A stretch of DNA of 64,000 bases from Alcaligenes sp. SDU_A2 (GTDB lineage Bacteria > Pseudomonadota > Gammaproteobacteria > Burkholderiales > Burkholderiaceae_B): contig NZ_CP151273.1 in the NCBI RefSeq assembly GCF_038237375.1, positions 2,604,001 to 2,668,000 on the forward strand, written 5' to 3'. The notes beneath the pieces were generated by a model, which was given only the letters and a program-made list of their open reading frames with translations, made no database searches and was not told where the DNA came from. Shown here piece after piece: positions 5,651-16,882 of this stretch; within the stretch, counting starts at the first letter, position 1; each line of letters begins with the position of its first letter. The translations under genes and the position numbers were made by a program.

Positions 5651-6343
5651 TCAATTGGATAGGACGTTCAGCAATCCCGAAAACGGGTTGCGTTCTTCTG
5701 CACCGCCTTTAGGAGCCGTTGCAGGCGCAGCGACTGGCGCGGCAGGCGGCGCTGTCACCGGAGCCGACGCGGCTTCGGCTGAGCGCTCGACAGAGGTCTC
5801 TGTGCCGGTCGATACGGGGCGAGCATCGACGGGCTTAGCACGAGCGCGACGCGGTGACCGCTTGCGCTCTTTGGGAAACAAAGCGTCTTGCCCGAGTGAG
5901 TCGCGCAAGGCCTGCGCCAGGGCTTGGGCATCCACCCGGGCATTGCCAGCCAGCAGCGCGTTATCGCGTATATCGGCCAGGGACTGCAAAGCGATGCGCA
6001 ATCCGCCCACCACACGCACCGACTTGGCCGTGAAATCATCCGGTTCGCGCTGCAGAGTTTCGTCGGCCGCCACAATGGCGGCACCATATTGCGCGTGATC
6101 GAAACGCAATTTGGCAATGTGCGACCAGACTAATCCTGATGAGGGATTGCGCCGGGCCAATTCCGTTAATTTCTCGATCGCCAGATCCAGATCATCGTCC
6201 TGTGCGGTTTGCAATGCCTGCGCAATAGCCGTGGTCAATTCGTTCTGAGATAAAGGCTCCAGTTCCTTTTGATTAGGCGACGAAGCACAACCCGTCACAA
6301 GAGCAAAAACAAGGCCACACGCCAAAAAACGAGGAAACATCAT
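5651..6343 (-). CDS. T6SS-linked TPR-like lipoprotein
   Basis: 230 residues. A type II signal peptide ends in ALVTGC with the lipidated Cys at residue 19. Residues about 35-115 are helical and TPR-like (LDLAIEKLTELARRNPSSGL, then FDHAQYGAAIVAADETLQREP), followed by a basic stretch and a Pro/Ala-rich linker ending in RNPFSGLLNVLSN. It lies 61 nt upstream of tssB and diverges from tssJ, so it is probably a cluster accessory protein in the envelope. I cannot name it with certainty. Similar TPR lipoproteins accompany some Burkholderiales T6SS clusters, and their role is not clear to me. Confidence 0.75.
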   Translation of the reverse strand: MMFPRFLACGLVFALVTGCASSPNQKELEPLSQNELTTAIAQALQTAQDDDLDLAIEKLTELARRNPSSGLVWSHIAKLRFDHAQYGAAIVAADETLQREPDDFTAKSVRVVGGLRIALQSLADIRDNALLAGNARVDAQALAQALRDSLGQDALFPKERKRSPRRARAKPVDARPVSTGTETSVERSAEAASAPVTAPPAAPVAAPATAPKGGAEERNPFSGLLNVLSN

Positions 6344-8580: not shown

Positions 8581-9339
8581 ATGACCACCGCCGTCTCCCC
8601 GCCTCCCGATCTTGTCACCGTGTCGGACGCTGTCGCCAAGCCCACGCTGGTCGATCTGTTCTACGAAGGCTTTCTGATGCTGTTCCTGCTCAAGAACGGT
8701 TCGGAGCCCATCAGCGCCGCCGATTACACCCGGCGGGTCCAGGACTATCTGGCCGATGTAGATCGCCAGGCACGAGCGATGAACATCGCCGGACAAGACT
8801 GCCATGCCGCCAAATACGCCTTCTGCGCCACCGTGGACGAGATCATTCTGCAGTCGGATTTCGCCGTCAAGCAGGAGTGGTACATCCGCCCCTTGCAACT
8901 GACGCTTTTTGGCGATCAGTTGGCGGGTGCCAATTTTTTTGAGCGGCTGGAAGAGTTGCGACTGGAAGGGGCCGCCCGCCTGCCGTCGCTGGAAGTCTTT
9001 CACATGTGCTTGCTGTTGGGTTTCCAAGGCAAGTACGTCTTTGAGGGACAAGAAAAACTAGGCTTTCTGACCAGCAAACTGGGGGACGAGATTGCCCGTA
9101 TGCGCAACAAGCGCAGCGGCTTCGCTCCCTTCTGGGCGATACCCGACAAGATCAGCCACACCTTGAAGCGCGACATGCCACTTTGGGCGATGGCCGCTCT
9201 GGTATCGCTATGTGCCGTAGCGGGCTTCCTGGGCATCCGCTATGCCTTGGCCCAGGACACGCACGACATGCTGGGGCAGTATCAGCACATCGTCAGCGTA
9301 GGGCCTCGCTCGGCCCACCTGACCATCACCCTGCCCTGA
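8581..9339 (+). CDS. tssL: T6SS inner-membrane protein TssL (DotU-type, short)
   Basis: 252 residues with the DotU/TssL cytoplasmic hook: CHAAKYAFCATVDEIIL, WYIRPLQLTLFGDQLAGANFFERL and the LLLGFQGKY motif. One transmembrane helix lies near residues 200-220 (MPLWAMAALVSLCAVAGFLGI). The short tail carries no OmpA peptidoglycan-binding extension, which some TssL proteins have; a separate OmpA-domain protein is encoded at 16079. TssL recruits TssK and the baseplate and binds TssM. A GGAG ribosome-binding site precedes ATG 8581. Confidence 0.95.
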   Translation: MTTAVSPPPDLVTVSDAVAKPTLVDLFYEGFLMLFLLKNGSEPISAADYTRRVQDYLADVDRQARAMNIAGQDCHAAKYAFCATVDEIILQSDFAVKQEWYIRPLQLTLFGDQLAGANFFERLEELRLEGAARLPSLEVFHMCLLLGFQGKYVFEGQEKLGFLTSKLGDEIARMRNKRSGFAPFWAIPDKISHTLKRDMPLWAMAALVSLCAVAGFLGIRYALAQDTHDMLGQYQHIVSVGPRSAHLTITLP

Positions 9340-9359: not shown

Positions 9360-10175
9360 TCAGGGTTCGGGCGATGCGGTCTGCTCAGCCAGGCAGGCTT
9401 CATGCGCCAGATGCGCGCGACAAACTTGCGCCCGACAAGACGGACGCTGGAAGAAACTTTGTCGGTCGCATTCCTGCAAACGCGCCGATATCTGATCCAC
9501 CGGAATGACGCGCATGCGCACTGCCCCGTCATCGACCAGTTGCACGCCAGCCAGATTGGACGACGGCAGGCCCATAGACAGCAAGCCGGCCAACACGGAT
9601 ACATCCACCTGCTTCTGGGCCGCAGCGCCCCGCCCCGGTATCGCTGACGGGGCCGGCTTGCCGGAAGAGGCGTGCGGCACGGTGCCTGACGGCGTGATGT
9701 GCGGCGCACGCGTCGAGCCTGCATCCCGCTCCGCTAACAAACCGGCAAGACCAGAACGCGGCGTGGCCGCCTGATCCAGCATCAGCAAGGGATTGCGCAA
9801 CTCCCCCTGGTCATGCGCATCCGCTTCGTGCGCGGCCTGCGGCCAATCCTCAAGAACAGCCGCTGTCGTTACCGACGCTTCGGGCAAGGCCGGCACGGGC
9901 ACTGTCGGAGCGTTCACGACGTTTTCCGAGCTGGTTGGAGCGGTAGAGATCCGAAATCCAGAACCGTTGTCCCGCGTCGCGGCGTACAGGGCAAGGCCTG
10001 CGCTCAGAACAAGCCCTGTCAGCAACATGGCGGTTTTGCGGCCTGCGCCGGTATTGGCAGGCTGGTCCCTGGCCCGAGCAGGTATTTGGACAACGCGCCC
10101 TTCCAATGCAGCCAGAATTCGGTGCTCTTTGTTCGGAGACGATCCGACTGCATTCATCAACGTAGGCACTGTCAC
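9360..10175 (-). CDS. T6SS-island membrane protein of unknown function
   Basis: 271 residues from GTG 10175, chosen because AAGGAG sits 5 nt upstream; a longer frame extends to 10223. The N-terminal about 45 residues are cytosolic, with one transmembrane helix at about 48-67 (TAMLLTGLVLSAGLALYAAT). A Pro/Ser/Ala-rich periplasmic linker then leads to a C-terminal domain (from about 190) with four cysteines spaced CDRQSFFQRPSCRAQVC...C. It is convergent with tssL and divergent from the tagX-like gene, inside the T6SS cluster. I do not recognise a family; a bitopic envelope component of the machine is the natural guess. Confidence 0.75.
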   Translation of the reverse strand: MTVPTLMNAVGSSPNKEHRILAALEGRVVQIPARARDQPANTGAGRKTAMLLTGLVLSAGLALYAATRDNGSGFRISTAPTSSENVVNAPTVPVPALPEASVTTAAVLEDWPQAAHEADAHDQGELRNPLLMLDQAATPRSGLAGLLAERDAGSTRAPHITPSGTVPHASSGKPAPSAIPGRGAAAQKQVDVSVLAGLLSMGLPSSNLAGVQLVDDGAVRMRVIPVDQISARLQECDRQSFFQRPSCRAQVCRAHLAHEACLAEQTASPEP

Positions 10176-10361
10176 GGCCACTCCTTTCTTGAAATTTCCC
10201 AGTTTTTTCAGCAAGCATATCAAATTCTCGTCACAAACAAATAATTAGCCGCCTTTTATTATTTACCTTATAAATCTCGCCTTAAACATTAATTAGATTG
10301 CAAAAAAACTATTTTTTATTTTGCTAAAATCATTTCTATTTTTTTCTCTTATCACGCCCGC
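10176..10361. promoter_or_regulatory. AT-rich divergent spacer before tagX-like gene
   Basis: 186 bp between the divergent unknown membrane gene and the tagX-like gene. From about 10230 to 10345 it is strongly AT-rich (runs such as CAAACAAATAATTA and AAAAAACTATTTTTTATTTT). It probably carries promoters in both directions. No ribosome-binding site is visible in front of the ATG at 10362. Confidence 0.45.
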
Positions 10362-11201
10362 ATGCACTTTGCCCTTCTGTTGTTTTTTTATTTCCTGCTG
10401 TCCTTGGCGGTGCTGTCGTTTCTGATATTCCCGCCCCTGCGACAGTGGGCAATCGCCGGCAGTCGCCAAGTCTGCCTGCGCGCCGGCCATCTGCTGTCGC
10501 GCATTGGGCGCTATGGTCTGCTGATCGTTACCGCGCCCGCCGAAAGCACGGCCAAGGCGGTGCGCCACGCAGGGCGAACAGGTTGGCACCGCAGACACGC
10601 ACTGGCAGTCGCCGCCCTCTTGCTGATACTGCCACCGCTGGTAGCGGTACTGGGACGAGACAGTCATGTATTTCGTCTGCACCAGGCGGCCCGTATCGAC
10701 GACCGCATACAGGCCCTGCTGACTGGCGAACGGCTGGCCACGCCAGCGGCCTTGCCGCCGGATATGTTCACCACGCGGGAAGTCGAGCTGATCCGTCCGC
10801 AGCTGGTCCAGGCAAGCCGCGACTGGGATCTGCTGGATGCGGAATTCCGCCATCGTCTACTGCTCATCTACCAGATCATGCGCGAAGAGCACGGCTATGA
10901 AATGGTGCTGCTAGAGGGCTACCGCAGCCCCGAGCGGCAGGAAAAGCTGGCTGCCATGGGAACACATGTCACTCAGGCCCGCGCCTTTCAGAGCTATCAC
11001 CAGTTCGGCCTGGCCGCGGACAGCGCCTTTCTGCGCAATGGCAAGATCGTCATCACCGAAAAAGATCCTTGGGCCATGCGGGGTTATGAGTTATATGGCG
11101 AAACAGCCGAAAAGGTCGGCCTGACCTGGGGCGGGCGATGGAAGATGATGGATTTCGGGCATGTCGAATATCGCCATCCTGGCGCACGGTCACAGCGCTG
11201 A
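10362..11201 (+). CDS. tagX: TagX-like M15 peptidoglycan peptidase of the T6SS
   Basis: 279 residues. N-terminal membrane segments lie at about 3-25 and 88-106 (LAVAALLLILPPLVAVLG). A peptidase M15/VanY-type domain occupies about 150-275, with the zinc-binding pattern SYHQFGLAADSAF (H-x3-G-x2-x-D) and a distal FGHVEY supplying the last His. TagX is known from Acinetobacter as an L,D-endopeptidase that lets the T6SS cross the cell wall. Here it sits directly before tssM. The family call comes from the motifs and context; the exact bond cleaved cannot be read from sequence. Confidence 0.82.
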   Translation: MHFALLLFFYFLLSLAVLSFLIFPPLRQWAIAGSRQVCLRAGHLLSRIGRYGLLIVTAPAESTAKAVRHAGRTGWHRRHALAVAALLLILPPLVAVLGRDSHVFRLHQAARIDDRIQALLTGERLATPAALPPDMFTTREVELIRPQLVQASRDWDLLDAEFRHRLLLIYQIMREEHGYEMVLLEGYRSPERQEKLAAMGTHVTQARAFQSYHQFGLAADSAFLRNGKIVITEKDPWAMRGYELYGETAEKVGLTWGGRWKMMDFGHVEYRHPGARSQR

Positions 11202-11341: not shown

Positions 11342-14300
11342 ATGCCGAACCCATCTGGATTCTTTTCCCGCCTTGCCAGTCTTTTTCATGATTTCCGGTA
11401 TTGGATCGGACGAATGATCGTCGCCCCGCGCACTTTTTCCCTATTGGGGCTGAGTGCGCTGATCATCATCTACTTTATGCTGGCCGACACTATGCAAACA
11501 GCAATGTGGTGGTCCGCATGGACGCTGCTTGTCTTTGCTGTTTTCGGCGCTGTCACGCTACTGTGGCGACGCCGCCGCAATCGCAAGGCCGGCCGCATCC
11601 TGGGCCAGGCCCTGGAAGAACAAGTACGGGCCAGCAAGACCCCCAGCGACCTGGGACAACTGCGCGAACGTCTACTGCACGCCGTGCGCTTGCTCAAAAC
11701 GTCCAGGATCGGCCAGACATCCGGTCATGCAGCTTTGTACGAATTACCCTGGTATATCGTCATTGGCAATCCGGCGGCCGGGAAAAGCAGCGCCATCACC
11801 CATTCGGGCTTGCAATTTCCCCTGGAAGACTCCACGGGGGCCGGCATCCGGGGCGTAGGGGGAACACGCAACTGCGACTGGTTCTTTACCACCGAAGGAA
11901 TTTTGCTGGACACGGCCGGCCGCTATTCAGTCCACGAAGAAGAGCGCACAGAGTGGCTGGGTTTTCTGGATCTGCTCAAGCGATACCGCAGCAAAGCGCC
12001 TATCAACGGCATCATCGTGGCCGTCAGCATCAGCGAACTGACTGCCACCGGACCCGAGTTTGCTATTGATCTGGCCAAAAACCTTCGCCAGCGCATTCAG
12101 GAACTGACCGAGCGCCTGGAAGTTATCGCGCCGGTCTACATCCTCTTCACCAAAACAGACCTGATCGCCGGCTTCACCGACTTCTTTGCGAACGAGAGCA
12201 ACCATCAACGCCAGCAGGTCTGGGGCGCAACTTTTCCGTACCAGGCGCAGGATGCGCGGGATGCGGTGGCCTTGTTCGACGAACATTTCGAGATCCTCCA
12301 CCAAGGACTCAAAGAAATCAGCACGGCCCAGATCGCCGCTCGGTCCACACATACCCTGCCGGCCGGTCTATTGACCTTTCCGCTGGAGTTCGCCGCGATC
12401 CAGCCGGCCCTGCGCACCTTTCTGGCCACGTTGTTCGAGCCCAACCCTTACCAGTACAAACCCATTCTGCGTGGGTTCTATTTCACCAGTGCTGTTCAGG
12501 AAGGTCAGGCACGCAGCAGTTCCACGCCGCATCTAAAAGCGTCCTTTGGCCTGCGCGGCGGCGAGGACAGCCAAAGCACGCCGGCCGCCCCAGAACGGCA
12601 CGGCTACTTCCTGAAAAACCTGTTTTCCAACGTTATCTTCGCCGACAAGAACCTGGTCAAGCAGCACGCCAATCCCGGCCGCATCCGTCTGCGCTACGCG
12701 GGATTCTTCATGATGGTGCTGGGCCTTGGTCTATCGCTGGGACTGTGGGGCTGGTCCTATTACGCCAATCAGCAACTGGTGCAGAACGTGCGCGCCGACC
12801 TGGATGCCGTCGTGCGGCTGCAGGCCGACCGAACCGACTTGCAAAGCCGCCTGGAAGCCATGGAGATCCTGCAGGACCGGATCGAACAATTGGACCGCTT
12901 TGATGCCGAGCGTCCCTGGGCGCTGCGTTTTGGACTGTACCAGGGCGGACAGCTCAAGCAGCAACTGCTGGCCGAGTACTATCACGGACTACGCCAGTTC
13001 ATGCTCACGCCGGTCCAATCCAGCGTAGAGGAATTTCTGTCCAAAATCCGCCTGCGCGCCGATGGGCCCGATGCCCTTGCGTCGACCGTAGCTGTGTCTG
13101 CCCCTGCAGACACGCTGTTCCAGGACGCCTCGCCATCCAATGCCGAAGACGTGCACAATGCACTGAAAGCCTATTTGATGATGGCCTCGCGTCAGCACGT
13201 GGAACCCAGCCATCTGGCCGATCAGATCACGCGTTTCTGGCGCGGCTGGCTGGAAACCAACCGCGGGGCTATGCCGCGCGACCAGATGATACGCAGTGCC
13301 GGTCGCATGGTGTCTTTCTATACTGGACGCCCGAGCGATCCGGCCTGGCCACAGATCGACCAGAATCTGGCCCTGGTCGAGAGCGCACGTCAAAGCCTGC
13401 GGGCGGTCATGCAAGGCATGCCTGCCCGCGAACGTGCCTACACCACGATCAAGGCGCGCGCCTCCACCCGTTTCCAGGCCATGACCGTGGCCCGCATCGT
13501 GGGCGATGCCGATGCCGACCTGATGACCGGCAGCTACGCCATTCCCGGCACCTTCACCCGCCAGGCTTGGCGTGAATATATCGAACCGGCCTTTCAGGAA
13601 GCCTCCCGCAAAGAGCTCCAGACTACCGACTGGGTGCTGGGGGTCAACAGCCGCGACGACCTGACCTTGCTGGGCAGCCCGGAACAGATCTTCAAGGGGC
13701 TGTCCGATATGTATAAGACGGAATACGCGCAAGAATGGCAAAAATTTCTGCGCGGGGTCAGCATCGCCTCGTTCAGCACCTTTTCCCAGGCCGTGGACGG
13801 CATGAACCGGCTGGGCCACCCCGATAACTCGCCCACCAAGAAACTGCTGCTGGAAGCCTATGCGCAGACCGCTTGGGACAATCCCCGACTGGTTTCTGCC
13901 GCTGCAGACACATCGCAGCCGCAGGCCGGCTGGTTCCGGCGCGTCATCCTGCGCCAGGACACACCAGACGCGCCCGACCCGGCTGCGCCCGCCACGGTCG
14001 AACCGGGTCCGGTCGGCGAGCAGTTCTCGGACATCGCCCGCCTTATCGCCGATCACGACGGCCAGTCTCTGTTGGGCAATTACATGGGGTCGCTGGCCAG
14101 CATCCGGACCCGCTTCAATCAGATCCAGAACCAGGGAGATCCCGGCCCTGGAGCGCTCATGCTCGTTCACCAGACCCTGCAAGGCAAAGGTTCGGAGCTA
14201 TCCGATGCGCTGCGCCTGGTGGATGAGCAAATTCTGGCCGGACTGAACGATACCCAGCGCCAGACCTTGCGTCCTCTGCTGGTGCGCCCGCTGTCCCAGA

Positions 14301-15097
14301 GCTTCGCGGCCGCGCTGCCCACGGCCGAGGCCGAACTGAACAAAACATGGCTGGCACAGGTTTACGAGCCTTTTCAGGATAAGCTGGCTGGAAAATATCC
14401 CTTCAACCCGCAAGGTACGATCGAAGCCGGACCCGACGAAATCGGACGGATTTTCGGCCCCGAAGGTGCCATCAGCCATTTTGTGTCCGACACGCTGGCA
14501 CCGCTGGCCATCCGGCGTGGCACCATCCTGACCAGCCGCACCTGGGGCGATCTGGGCATCACACTGCAGCCCGCTTTCACAGCCGGTTTCGCTCGCTGGG
14601 TGGCTCCGCTGTCCGGCGGTGCCGCAGGCAGCGCGCAGCAAGTACAGACCCATTTCCAGATCCAGCCCCGGCCGGCGGCAGGTGCCTCGGAATACACTAT
14701 CGAGATCGACGGCCAGCAACTGCGCTACCGCAATACGCCGCCCCAATGGGTCAACTTCATCTGGCCCAACCCGCAAGGCGCACCGGGCGTGCGCATCACG
14801 GCCCAGAGCTTCGAAGGCCGCACCGTGGACATTGTCCAGGAGCCCGGACGCTACGGTCTGGAGCGCCTGTTGGCGTCGGCCCAGCGCACGACCAATGCCG
14901 ACGGCTCATTCAACATGACCTGGAACGCATCCGGGGTGACTGTGCCTGTGCTGCTGCGCATCATCAGCAATACCCAGGCCAGCGCCGACGACGATGCGGC
15001 CAGCCAGGGCCTGTCGGGACTGGCCCTGCCGCGCAGCATTGCCGGCGGATCGGCCCCAGATGCTCCCGCCCCCTTGCAGGCGGGAGGACGGCCATGA
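11342..15097 (+). CDS. tssM: T6SS inner-membrane core protein TssM (IcmF)
   Basis: 1251 residues, a normal TssM length. Two N-terminal membrane helices lie at about residues 30-48 and 56-75, and a cytoplasmic NTPase-like domain carries the Walker A motif GNPAAGKSS at about 142. A third helix at about 458-478 (FFMMVLGLGLSLGLWGWSYY) leads into a large periplasmic domain that contacts TssJ. TssM spans the periplasm and opens and closes the channel. A recognisable Shine-Dalgarno is lacking. Its stop overlaps the tagF start (ATGA), so the two are translationally coupled. Confidence 0.97.
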   Translation: MPNPSGFFSRLASLFHDFRYWIGRMIVAPRTFSLLGLSALIIIYFMLADTMQTAMWWSAWTLLVFAVFGAVTLLWRRRRNRKAGRILGQALEEQVRASKTPSDLGQLRERLLHAVRLLKTSRIGQTSGHAALYELPWYIVIGNPAAGKSSAITHSGLQFPLEDSTGAGIRGVGGTRNCDWFFTTEGILLDTAGRYSVHEEERTEWLGFLDLLKRYRSKAPINGIIVAVSISELTATGPEFAIDLAKNLRQRIQELTERLEVIAPVYILFTKTDLIAGFTDFFANESNHQRQQVWGATFPYQAQDARDAVALFDEHFEILHQGLKEISTAQIAARSTHTLPAGLLTFPLEFAAIQPALRTFLATLFEPNPYQYKPILRGFYFTSAVQEGQARSSSTPHLKASFGLRGGEDSQSTPAAPERHGYFLKNLFSNVIFADKNLVKQHANPGRIRLRYAGFFMMVLGLGLSLGLWGWSYYANQQLVQNVRADLDAVVRLQADRTDLQSRLEAMEILQDRIEQLDRFDAERPWALRFGLYQGGQLKQQLLAEYYHGLRQFMLTPVQSSVEEFLSKIRLRADGPDALASTVAVSAPADTLFQDASPSNAEDVHNALKAYLMMASRQHVEPSHLADQITRFWRGWLETNRGAMPRDQMIRSAGRMVSFYTGRPSDPAWPQIDQNLALVESARQSLRAVMQGMPARERAYTTIKARASTRFQAMTVARIVGDADADLMTGSYAIPGTFTRQAWREYIEPAFQEASRKELQTTDWVLGVNSRDDLTLLGSPEQIFKGLSDMYKTEYAQEWQKFLRGVSIASFSTFSQAVDGMNRLGHPDNSPTKKLLLEAYAQTAWDNPRLVSAAADTSQPQAGWFRRVILRQDTPDAPDPAAPATVEPGPVGEQFSDIARLIADHDGQSLLGNYMGSLASIRTRFNQIQNQGDPGPGALMLVHQTLQGKGSELSDALRLVDEQILAGLNDTQRQTLRPLLVRPLSQSFAAALPTAEAELNKTWLAQVYEPFQDKLAGKYPFNPQGTIEAGPDEIGRIFGPEGAISHFVSDTLAPLAIRRGTILTSRTWGDLGITLQPAFTAGFARWVAPLSGGAAGSAQQVQTHFQIQPRPAAGASEYTIEIDGQQLRYRNTPPQWVNFIWPNPQGAPGVRITAQSFEGRTVDIVQEPGRYGLERLLASAQRTTNADGSFNMTWNASGVTVPVLLRIISNTQASADDDAASQGLSGLALPRSIAGGSAPDAPAPLQAGGRP

Positions 15098-16077
15098 GCA
15101 TCCATGCCACACAAAGAGTCAATACGGCCTACTTCGGCAAGATTCCCACGCGTGGCGATTTTGTTAAAAACGCCTCACACCCGCAACTGATGGCCAGCCT
15201 GGACAACTGGGTCGCCCACGCCATGGGTCAGCTGGAACAGGACCTGGACTGGAAGACGCTTTACGACAACCTGCACGCCGTACGCTTCGCTTTCCTGGGC
15301 TCGCGCAGCAAGCTGGCCATTGCCGGTCATCTGCAGCCCAGCCGCGACCAGGCAGGTCGGCGCTTCCCTTTTTTATGCGCCACATCCCTGCCTGTCCCCC
15401 ATTCGCTCGATTTCATCGCCCGCAGCCCCATGGCCTTCAGCCGAATATGGGGGGCAATGGAACGCTCCACGCAAAGCCTCATGACCAGTACCGCGCCTGA
15501 CCAAGCCTTGTCCGAGCTGGATAATCTGGCCGGCGAAGTGCGTACGCAGGCGGACGACGGATTCGACGCTTTCATCGATCTGCAGACTATAGACGGCATG
15601 GTCTCGTTGCTCGCCCAACACGAACACACCATCGACTTCCACGATCTGGTTCTGGCCCTGGGCGCGCTGATGACACCTCTGCAATCCAGTGGCCGCTCAC
15701 AGGCCGATCAGGGTCTGCTGCTGCCCCTACCCCGCGATCCTCTTTACATGAACCTGAGCGCTGCGTTCTGGCTCAGTCTGATCACTCCTTTTCTGGCGCG
15801 CGGCGACTTTGAACTGGCCGTCTTCGTGCTAAGGCTGGAAGGCCGGCAGCGTCTGGCGGTGGGGTTGCGCGGTGCACACCCCGATGATCTGGCCAGCCTG
15901 ATTTCCACGCCCGCGCAAGCCTACCGACAGTTCCTATGCCTGGACCAGCCAGCCTGGATCAAAGACTTGCCTCAGCTGGACAGTGGCCAAAGCAAGCTGT
16001 CCAGCTATCTGCGCCAGCCCAGGCTGTCCCTGCGCACCGTGCGCGACACATTTCACGATGTCTTCACAGGAGCCTGA
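15094..16077 (+). CDS. tagF: T6SS accessory protein TagF
   Basis: 327 residues starting MSIHATQRVNTAYFGKIPTRGDFVKN. The YFGKIPTRGDF motif is diagnostic of TagF/ImpM (PF09867). TagF proteins act as post-translational repressors of T6SS assembly in Pseudomonas, Agrobacterium and others. The start is at 15094, where the ATG overlaps the tssM stop and GGGAGG is placed upstream; a longer in-frame extension into tssM is not credible. The Fha, PpkA and PppA partners of the threonine-phosphorylation pathway are not seen in this window. Confidence 0.93.
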   Translation: MSIHATQRVNTAYFGKIPTRGDFVKNASHPQLMASLDNWVAHAMGQLEQDLDWKTLYDNLHAVRFAFLGSRSKLAIAGHLQPSRDQAGRRFPFLCATSLPVPHSLDFIARSPMAFSRIWGAMERSTQSLMTSTAPDQALSELDNLAGEVRTQADDGFDAFIDLQTIDGMVSLLAQHEHTIDFHDLVLALGALMTPLQSSGRSQADQGLLLPLPRDPLYMNLSAAFWLSLITPFLARGDFELAVFVLRLEGRQRLAVGLRGAHPDDLASLISTPAQAYRQFLCLDQPAWIKDLPQLDSGQSKLSSYLRQPRLSLRTVRDTFHDVFTGA

Positions 16078-16078
16078 T

Positions 16079-16882
16079 ATGCCCCGTCTGATCGGACTTT
16101 CCGGCTTGCTCGGTCTGTGTCTGAGCGCATCCGCGCTGGCAAGCGGATCGGCGACCGTCATCCCCGCCAACATCATCCCCCAGCCGGGCCAGGTCTTGGC
16201 CAGCGGTGCCGTACCCGACGAAAAAACCAAGGCCGATGTGCTGCAGCGCTTGCAACAACTATACGGCCTGGGCAATGTCATCGACCAGATCGAGGTCGGC
16301 GGCGTCGTGGCACCACCCAATTGGTCGGGCCACGTGAACAATCTGCTCGACAAATCACTACAGCAGGTACACCGGGGACAGCTTGAAATCGACGGCACGC
16401 AGATACGTCTGACGGGCGAAGTGGCCAATGAAGCCACACGCCAGCAAGTCGCCAGCACATTGGCCACGGCGCTGAATCCTACTTACCGAATCGCCAACGG
16501 ATTGCGCGTGGCCGGTGACCGCAATGAGCAAGCCCGGCTGGACAACACCCTGGCCGAGCGCATCGTCGAGTTTCAGACAGGCAGCGCCACTCTGACCAAT
16601 ACAGGTCGCCAACTGCTGGACGAACTGGCCGATGTGCTGCCGCAGATCAGCAGCCAACGGGTTCAGATCATCGGACATACCGACAGTTCGGGCAGTCGAG
16701 CCACCAACCTGGCACTGAGTCAGGCGCGCGCGGACGCCGTCAAAGCCTACCTGATCAATAAAGGACTGCCTGAATCGCGCTTCGAGACCAGCGGTGCCGG
16801 TCCTGACCAGCCCGTGGCCTCTAACGCGTCCGCCGAAGGACGCGCCAAGAACCGGCGCATCGAATTTCGCGCCAGCAACTGA
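16079..16882 (+). CDS. OmpA-domain peptidoglycan-binding protein of the T6SS
   Basis: 267 residues. A signal peptide covers about residues 1-21 (MPRLIGLSGLLGLCLSASALA). A middle region resembles BON-type repeats (LEIDGTQIRLTGEVANEATRQQ). The C-terminal OmpA domain (about 155-267) contains VQIIGHTDSSGSRATNLALS and ends in AKNRRIEFRASN, the diaminopimelate-binding signature. It starts 1 nt after the tagF stop. It probably anchors the membrane complex to peptidoglycan in place of an OmpA extension on TssL, a known division of labour in other clusters; that role here is inference. Confidence 0.88.
   Translation: MPRLIGLSGLLGLCLSASALASGSATVIPANIIPQPGQVLASGAVPDEKTKADVLQRLQQLYGLGNVIDQIEVGGVVAPPNWSGHVNNLLDKSLQQVHRGQLEIDGTQIRLTGEVANEATRQQVASTLATALNPTYRIANGLRVAGDRNEQARLDNTLAERIVEFQTGSATLTNTGRQLLDELADVLPQISSQRVQIIGHTDSSGSRATNLALSQARADAVKAYLINKGLPESRFETSGAGPDQPVASNASAEGRAKNRRIEFRASN

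Follow-up and report, generated by a model that had tools for sequence, protein, structure and literature searches.

What protein is encoded, on the opposite strand, between tssL and a tagX-like peptidase gene in a type VI secretion system (T6SS) cluster of Alcaligenes sp. SDU_A2, and what might it do there? We analysed a 64,000-nucleotide stretch of contig NZ_CP151273.1 (hereafter the window), in which the gene occupies positions 9360–10175 (minus strand, stop included) and encodes 271 amino acids. The original prediction had placed an open reading frame between tssL and an M15 peptidase gene within a T6SS cluster, and profile searches confirmed the arrangement: tssL (dotU) lies on one side (8581–9339, plus strand; PF09850, 5.7e-52; TIGR03349), and the divergent partner tagX, coding for an M15 peptidase, on the other (10362–11201, plus strand; PF13539, 1.1e-11), followed by tssM (11342–15097, plus strand; TIGR03348, 1.6e-214). 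The surrounding cluster further contains recognisable tssJ, tssK and tssA genes, a gene for a protein with a TagF N-terminal domain and, at the place of tagN, a gene for an OmpA/BON protein whose start is unsettled (16013–16882, plus strand; PF00691, 4.2e-26; PF04972, 9.2e-5). A lipoprotein-like gene upstream of tssJ (5651–6343) has a weak, below cut-off BamD-type match (TIGR03302, 3.1e-6) and may be a candidate for TagM, a label taken from PMC6612558. For the gene under study translation probably begins with the GTG at 10175, preferred over the TTG at 10223 given further upstream in the open reading frame list because an AAAGGAG lies 5 nt upstream of it and homologues begin near there. The whole gene is present as a single copy in its own genome, and a scan for promoters and terminators found no signal above chance.

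Neither Pfam nor NCBIfam gave any match to the protein, and its family had been taken as unrecognised. The family is, however, already named and described: the protein is almost certainly TagY, an inner-membrane accessory protein of TagX-type T6SSs, introduced in PMC6612558 as BCAL0353 of the Burkholderia cenocepacia T6SS-1. The TagY section of that paper describes a gene in reverse orientation to tagX whose product has two short N-terminal motifs, a transmembrane segment about 55 residues in with the positive side inside, a low-complexity linker and, in most orthologues, a roughly 40-residue C-terminal region holding four cysteines; it reports TagY as limited to one type of T6SS. Set beside this published description of BCAL0353, the window gene likewise lies upstream of tagX in reverse orientation, and its product shares all of these features, two N-terminal motifs, one transmembrane segment of positive-inside character, the linker and the four-cysteine C-terminus. 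Single-sequence comparison found homologues with E values down to 3e-12. A profile of 11 relatives built without the window protein matched it over a helix motif and the cysteine block (probability 95.8, E 7.8e-9), and four of the 11 rows (L169, L138, L151 and L174) come from strains whose T6SS-1 clusters are among those that PMC6612558 lists as ending in tagY. The window member departs from typical TagY proteins: the near-invariant Gly and Trp that follow the third cysteine are missing, and its last cysteine spacing is x8 and not x9. A TagY-like protein of Ralstonia, described in passages of PMC11481896 and PMC6612558 as a TagY homologue from a T6SS of the same group, is reported without a cysteine tail, whereas the window protein has one. 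The neighbouring peptidase (10362–11201) belongs to the same M15/VanY-type family as the TagX proteins of Acinetobacter and Burkholderia treated in PMC5061870.

The N-terminal region (10071–10175, minus strand), predicted to be cytosolic, carries two short motifs, PTLM and RILAALEGR, which align with PSLL and RILA-LEGR of the relatives, in keeping with the pair of motifs set out in the TagY section of PMC6612558. A single hydrophobic segment follows at about residues 48–66 (9978–10034, minus strand; 19-residue hydropathy window, mean 1.77). Four Lys/Arg residues precede it and two follow, which predicts an N-in, C-out topology, and an excess of Lys/Arg on the N side was found in 99 of 107 members. 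Beyond it lies a low-complexity linker of 123 residues, 68% of which are P, A, K, S, T, Q, E, G or N. Linker length varies across the family (minimum 67, median 156, with the largest values due to mis-set starts), so the linker is no strict ruler. The helix motif DVSVLAGLL (residues 191–199; 9579–9605, minus strand) is followed by the four-cysteine module C-x10-C-x4-C-x8-C (residues 236–261; 9393–9470, minus strand). The bitopic protein with a periplasmic four-cysteine tail that had been claimed thus has its one hydrophobic segment and its four cysteines, while "bitopic" and "periplasmic" are predictions. For a Paraburkholderia member, the model shows helices at the N-terminal motif, at the transmembrane segment (51–74), at the helix motif (232–244, pLDDT of about 76) and in the cysteine block, which forms two helices (pLDDT 86–88); its linker is mostly of low confidence. 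The C-terminal model of the window protein is of modest quality (mean pLDDT 59.7), rising to about 80 within the cysteine module, and structure and solved-sequence searches returned no solved structure resembling the protein.

Co-occurrence with TagX, proposed as a check on the original prediction, proved strict. Among 151 genomes of the window's family, 11 encode TagX; the ten TagX genes with scores of 277.9 bits or more each have tagY beside them, six found by the first search and four (G100, G139, G077 and G120) by a broader profile. The eleventh (G012, 74.7 bits) has no TagY. Sampling 300 genomes of the order gave 32 TagX places in 30 genomes. All 19 places with at least 255 bits have TagY in the cluster, 17 of them adjacent and divergent; at the other two (G306 and G341) tagY lies by tssA, beyond it, instead of beside tagX. 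Three of the TagY assignments (L075, L080 and L081) have weak scores (E 1.7e-4 to 2e-5) and were accepted on position and common motifs. None of the 13 distant TagX places of this sample (155 to 174 bits) gave a TagY-family match (best E 0.13). Within the class sample TagX occurs in five of 369 genomes, the window's own among them; TagY is beside TagX in G715, G610 and G604 (188 to 259 bits), and G712, with TagX near a contig edge, was left out of the count. With double counts removed, TagY is present at 31/31 inspectable TagX places of at least 188 bits, the window's TagX type, and is adjacent and divergent at 29 of them; it was seen at 0/14 inspectable places scoring under 174 bits. Only a narrow gap separates the two classes of TagX. 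A second, more distant TagX type seen in L088–L100 adjoins tssJ in T6SS clusters where neither TagY nor an OmpA/TagN-like gene beside tssM was seen. In the family samples, six further genomes of the genus to which the window belongs (G001, G044, G074, G097, G117 and G136) gave neither TagX nor a TagY match, which suggests a sporadic distribution of this T6SS cluster within the genus.

The converse search ran the full-length profile against the same 300 genomes and is the one that also covers T6SS clusters lacking TagX; at a threshold of E 1e-4 it found 30 places and missed two TagX-linked members (G439 and G225). All 17 strong matches (E 4e-15 or better), eight of them rows of the profile itself, sit in TagX clusters, and the 13 weaker ones (E 1e-6 or worse) align solely with the middle low-complexity part. 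A contig search with the window protein alone as the query found no relatives; they did emerge once a more typical member headed the query alignment. A named collection was also assembled: a cysteine-tail pattern matched 200 stretches, of which 125 proved to be relatives, and 80 of those were retained. In 79 of the 80 the gene diverges from tagX, and the remaining one (L117) lies at the end of its contig; among the genera represented are Achromobacter, Bordetella, Paraburkholderia, Burkholderia, Caballeronia, Trinickia, Collimonas, Glaciimonas and Undibacterium. Because these 80 were found through the cysteine tail their cysteine counts are biased, and the 31 TagX-anchored places are free of that bias. 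We used TagX-anchored loci since a profile of the cysteine domain alone mixed true relatives with other envelope proteins. It had been considered that homologues might lie mostly outside T6SS clusters: for the whole protein this was not seen, but the cysteine tail by itself also occurs on non-T6SS envelope proteins.

Which part of TagY outside the membrane is most widely kept? Four cysteines are present in 21 of the 31 TagX-anchored members and absent in 10, and similar blocks end non-T6SS proteins, so that the emphasis of the original prediction on the cysteine tail as the key feature is not supported. The most widely kept outer part is a short helix. A motif of the type D-[VA]-x-L-L-x-A-L occurs in 46/46 dereplicated members, whereas 500 shuffles averaged 0.03 and never exceeded 1. 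As the motif had been defined on the sequences in which it was counted, the shuffles show only that composition does not explain it; four sequences with truncated or mis-set starts (L117, L149, L170 and L083) were omitted. In L079 and L081 the helix motif stops one residue before the end of the protein. Polymorphism within two Achromobacter groups and one Paraburkholderia group, together 31 of the 80 named loci, gave pN/pS values of 0.01–0.09 for the helix motif, 0.00–0.12 for the cysteine block, 0.18–0.37 for the N-terminal region and 0.26–0.51 for the linker (the Achromobacter B group comprised nine of its ten loci; in the one lost, L114, the first 140 residues hold no start motif). Such family-wide selection on the helix motif and cysteine block (0.00–0.12) supports tagY as a genuine coding gene. 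The helix motif is not mentioned in the TagY section or Figure A1 legend of PMC6612558, nor in the available text of PMC11481896. Taking this further, it is possible, though we put it forward only tentatively, that the defining periplasmic element of TagY is a short docking helix, D-[VA]-x-L-[LI]-x-A-[LI]-[VIM], and not the published cysteine domain, the helix being kept where the cysteine tail is lost; that TagY is a tether with two ends, its linear docking motifs lying on either side of the inner membrane; and that the protein in the same slot beside TagX in Acinetobacter, Hyp3, is unrelated.

For the function of TagY, the leading reading, which we hold with some reserve, is that of a flexible, non-essential tether that places and tunes TagX and the membrane complex. 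Consistent with it, TagY keeps strictly to one TagX type, both its ends are conserved and its linker is long. The short cytosolic motifs would rest against the secretion complex on its inner face, and the disordered linker, 123 residues in the window protein, would span towards the cell wall. There the conserved, putatively amphipathic helix may dock on a periplasmic partner such as TssM, TagX or TagN, and a helical hairpin, presumably stapled by disulfides, would provide a second contact in most lineages. TagX and the membrane complex could thereby be held at one spot and tuned, non-essentially. PMC6612558 reports, with results not displayed, that TssD secretion by a tagY insertion mutant of B. 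cenocepacia matched that of the wild type. TagY is therefore not an essential structural part under those conditions, which counts against the original idea of a structural envelope piece in that essential form, and, this being one strain, any role of TagY would be subtle or conditional.

The strongest competitor to the tether, though an unlikely one, is that TagY acts as a brake, blocking the activity of TagX or of the membrane complex until a cue arrives, so that its loss would raise or mislocalise activity. The argument comes from Acinetobacter, where Hyp3 (ACIAD2698/ACX60_11605) occupies the same slot between tssL and tagX and, like TagY, has one predicted N-terminal transmembrane segment and a predicted periplasmic part of low complexity. 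A Hyp3 mutant of A. baylyi is described in PMC5061870, in the passage concerned, as secreting more Hcp, and PMC6838775 suggests that Hyp3 may control TagX. Against this, the portion of PMC6565705 on ACIAD2698 calls it dispensable, secretion was unchanged in the B. cenocepacia mutant mentioned above, and Hyp3, tested as a candidate homologue of TagY, was rejected as not detectably related (hhalign probability 0.7; HMMER E 0.04–0.07, against one sequence and in a low-complexity region). Hyp3 is encoded on the same strand as tagX and has no cysteines. The Acinetobacter cluster used here comes from the plasmid collection, where an A. baumannii record holds it, as the marker search of the class sample yielded neither markers nor controls. 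Three A. baumannii records of that collection (L185, which is NZ_CP077849.1 and holds the T6SS cluster, NZ_CP064203.1 and NZ_CP104448.1), 3.7 to 4.1 Mb in size, carry tagX and look like chromosomes filed as plasmids.

A further likeness to Acinetobacter concerns another gene. At 44 of the 103 loci showing both tagX and tssM, a two-transmembrane protein is encoded between them whose similarity to ketoacyl synthases is weak (2.3e-11, below cut-off; for example L121:7209-8795, L102:7587-8960 and L123:7146-8612). A profile of seven such proteins matches A. baumannii TsmK (probability 98.5, E 2.5e-15), and the protein fits TagZ as outlined in the relevant part of PMC6612558. TsmK is described in PMC10564176 as Acinetobacter-specific and tied to the absence of TssJ; contrary to this, L170, L173 and L182 have both the TsmK-like protein and TssJ. 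No TsmK/TagZ-like two-transmembrane protein was found in the window's genome.

Less probable than a brake is the suggestion, made in the TagY section of PMC6612558, that the cysteines form an iron–sulfur or metal site, or sense redox state, and in this way adjust the T6SS. The four cysteines are indeed invariant in the aligned set, and of the four-cysteine members 95 of 97 have the spacing x10/x4/x9 and 90 of 97 have exactly four cysteines, a count that speaks against this reading, as does the position of the block in the predicted periplasm. Iron–sulfur sites are unlikely in the periplasm. The loss of the block from almost a third of TagX-anchored members likewise argues against such a site, and so does the occurrence of similar C-terminal blocks with other cysteine spacings on other envelope proteins of Burkholderiales, around which, where wider stretches were examined, no T6SS genes were found. 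The differing spacings on these other proteins, together with the predicted helices, point to a structural disulfide module instead. The window's own genome encodes, on contig C1 at about 105909–106082 (L053 and L193), a different predicted one-transmembrane envelope protein that ends in a similar four-cysteine block.

Slightly less probable again is a contact or envelope sensor that decides the site of T6SS assembly, as TslA does in Acinetobacter. The envelope position and the link to TagX are compatible with such a role, and TslA acts at cell–cell contacts and joins the TssM complex (PMC10564176). TslA/AsaA, which binds TssM, is, however, a periplasmic protein according to the abstract of PMC6602968, and by comparison of descriptions it differs from the window TagY, which has a predicted transmembrane segment and cytosolic tail. 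That TagY is a cargo-side immunity or adaptor protein for the downstream VgrG gene is very improbable: vgrG is indeed the next gene in Achromobacter and Bordetella, but most Paraburkholderia loci have no vgrG match adjoining tagY, so that tagY is largely kept without vgrG nearby, 79 of the 80 named loci have tagX close by, and the TagY blocks are conserved across genera and do not vary as effectors do.

The identification of TagY is in itself ordinary and the new biology modest; the conserved helix is a small, testable target. There is only a partial understanding of how a T6SS crosses the cell wall of its own cell without lysis, a step in which TagX is one of the enzymes given a part. TagY, found with one type of TagX in every inspectable case, is a natural candidate for placing or controlling TagX.
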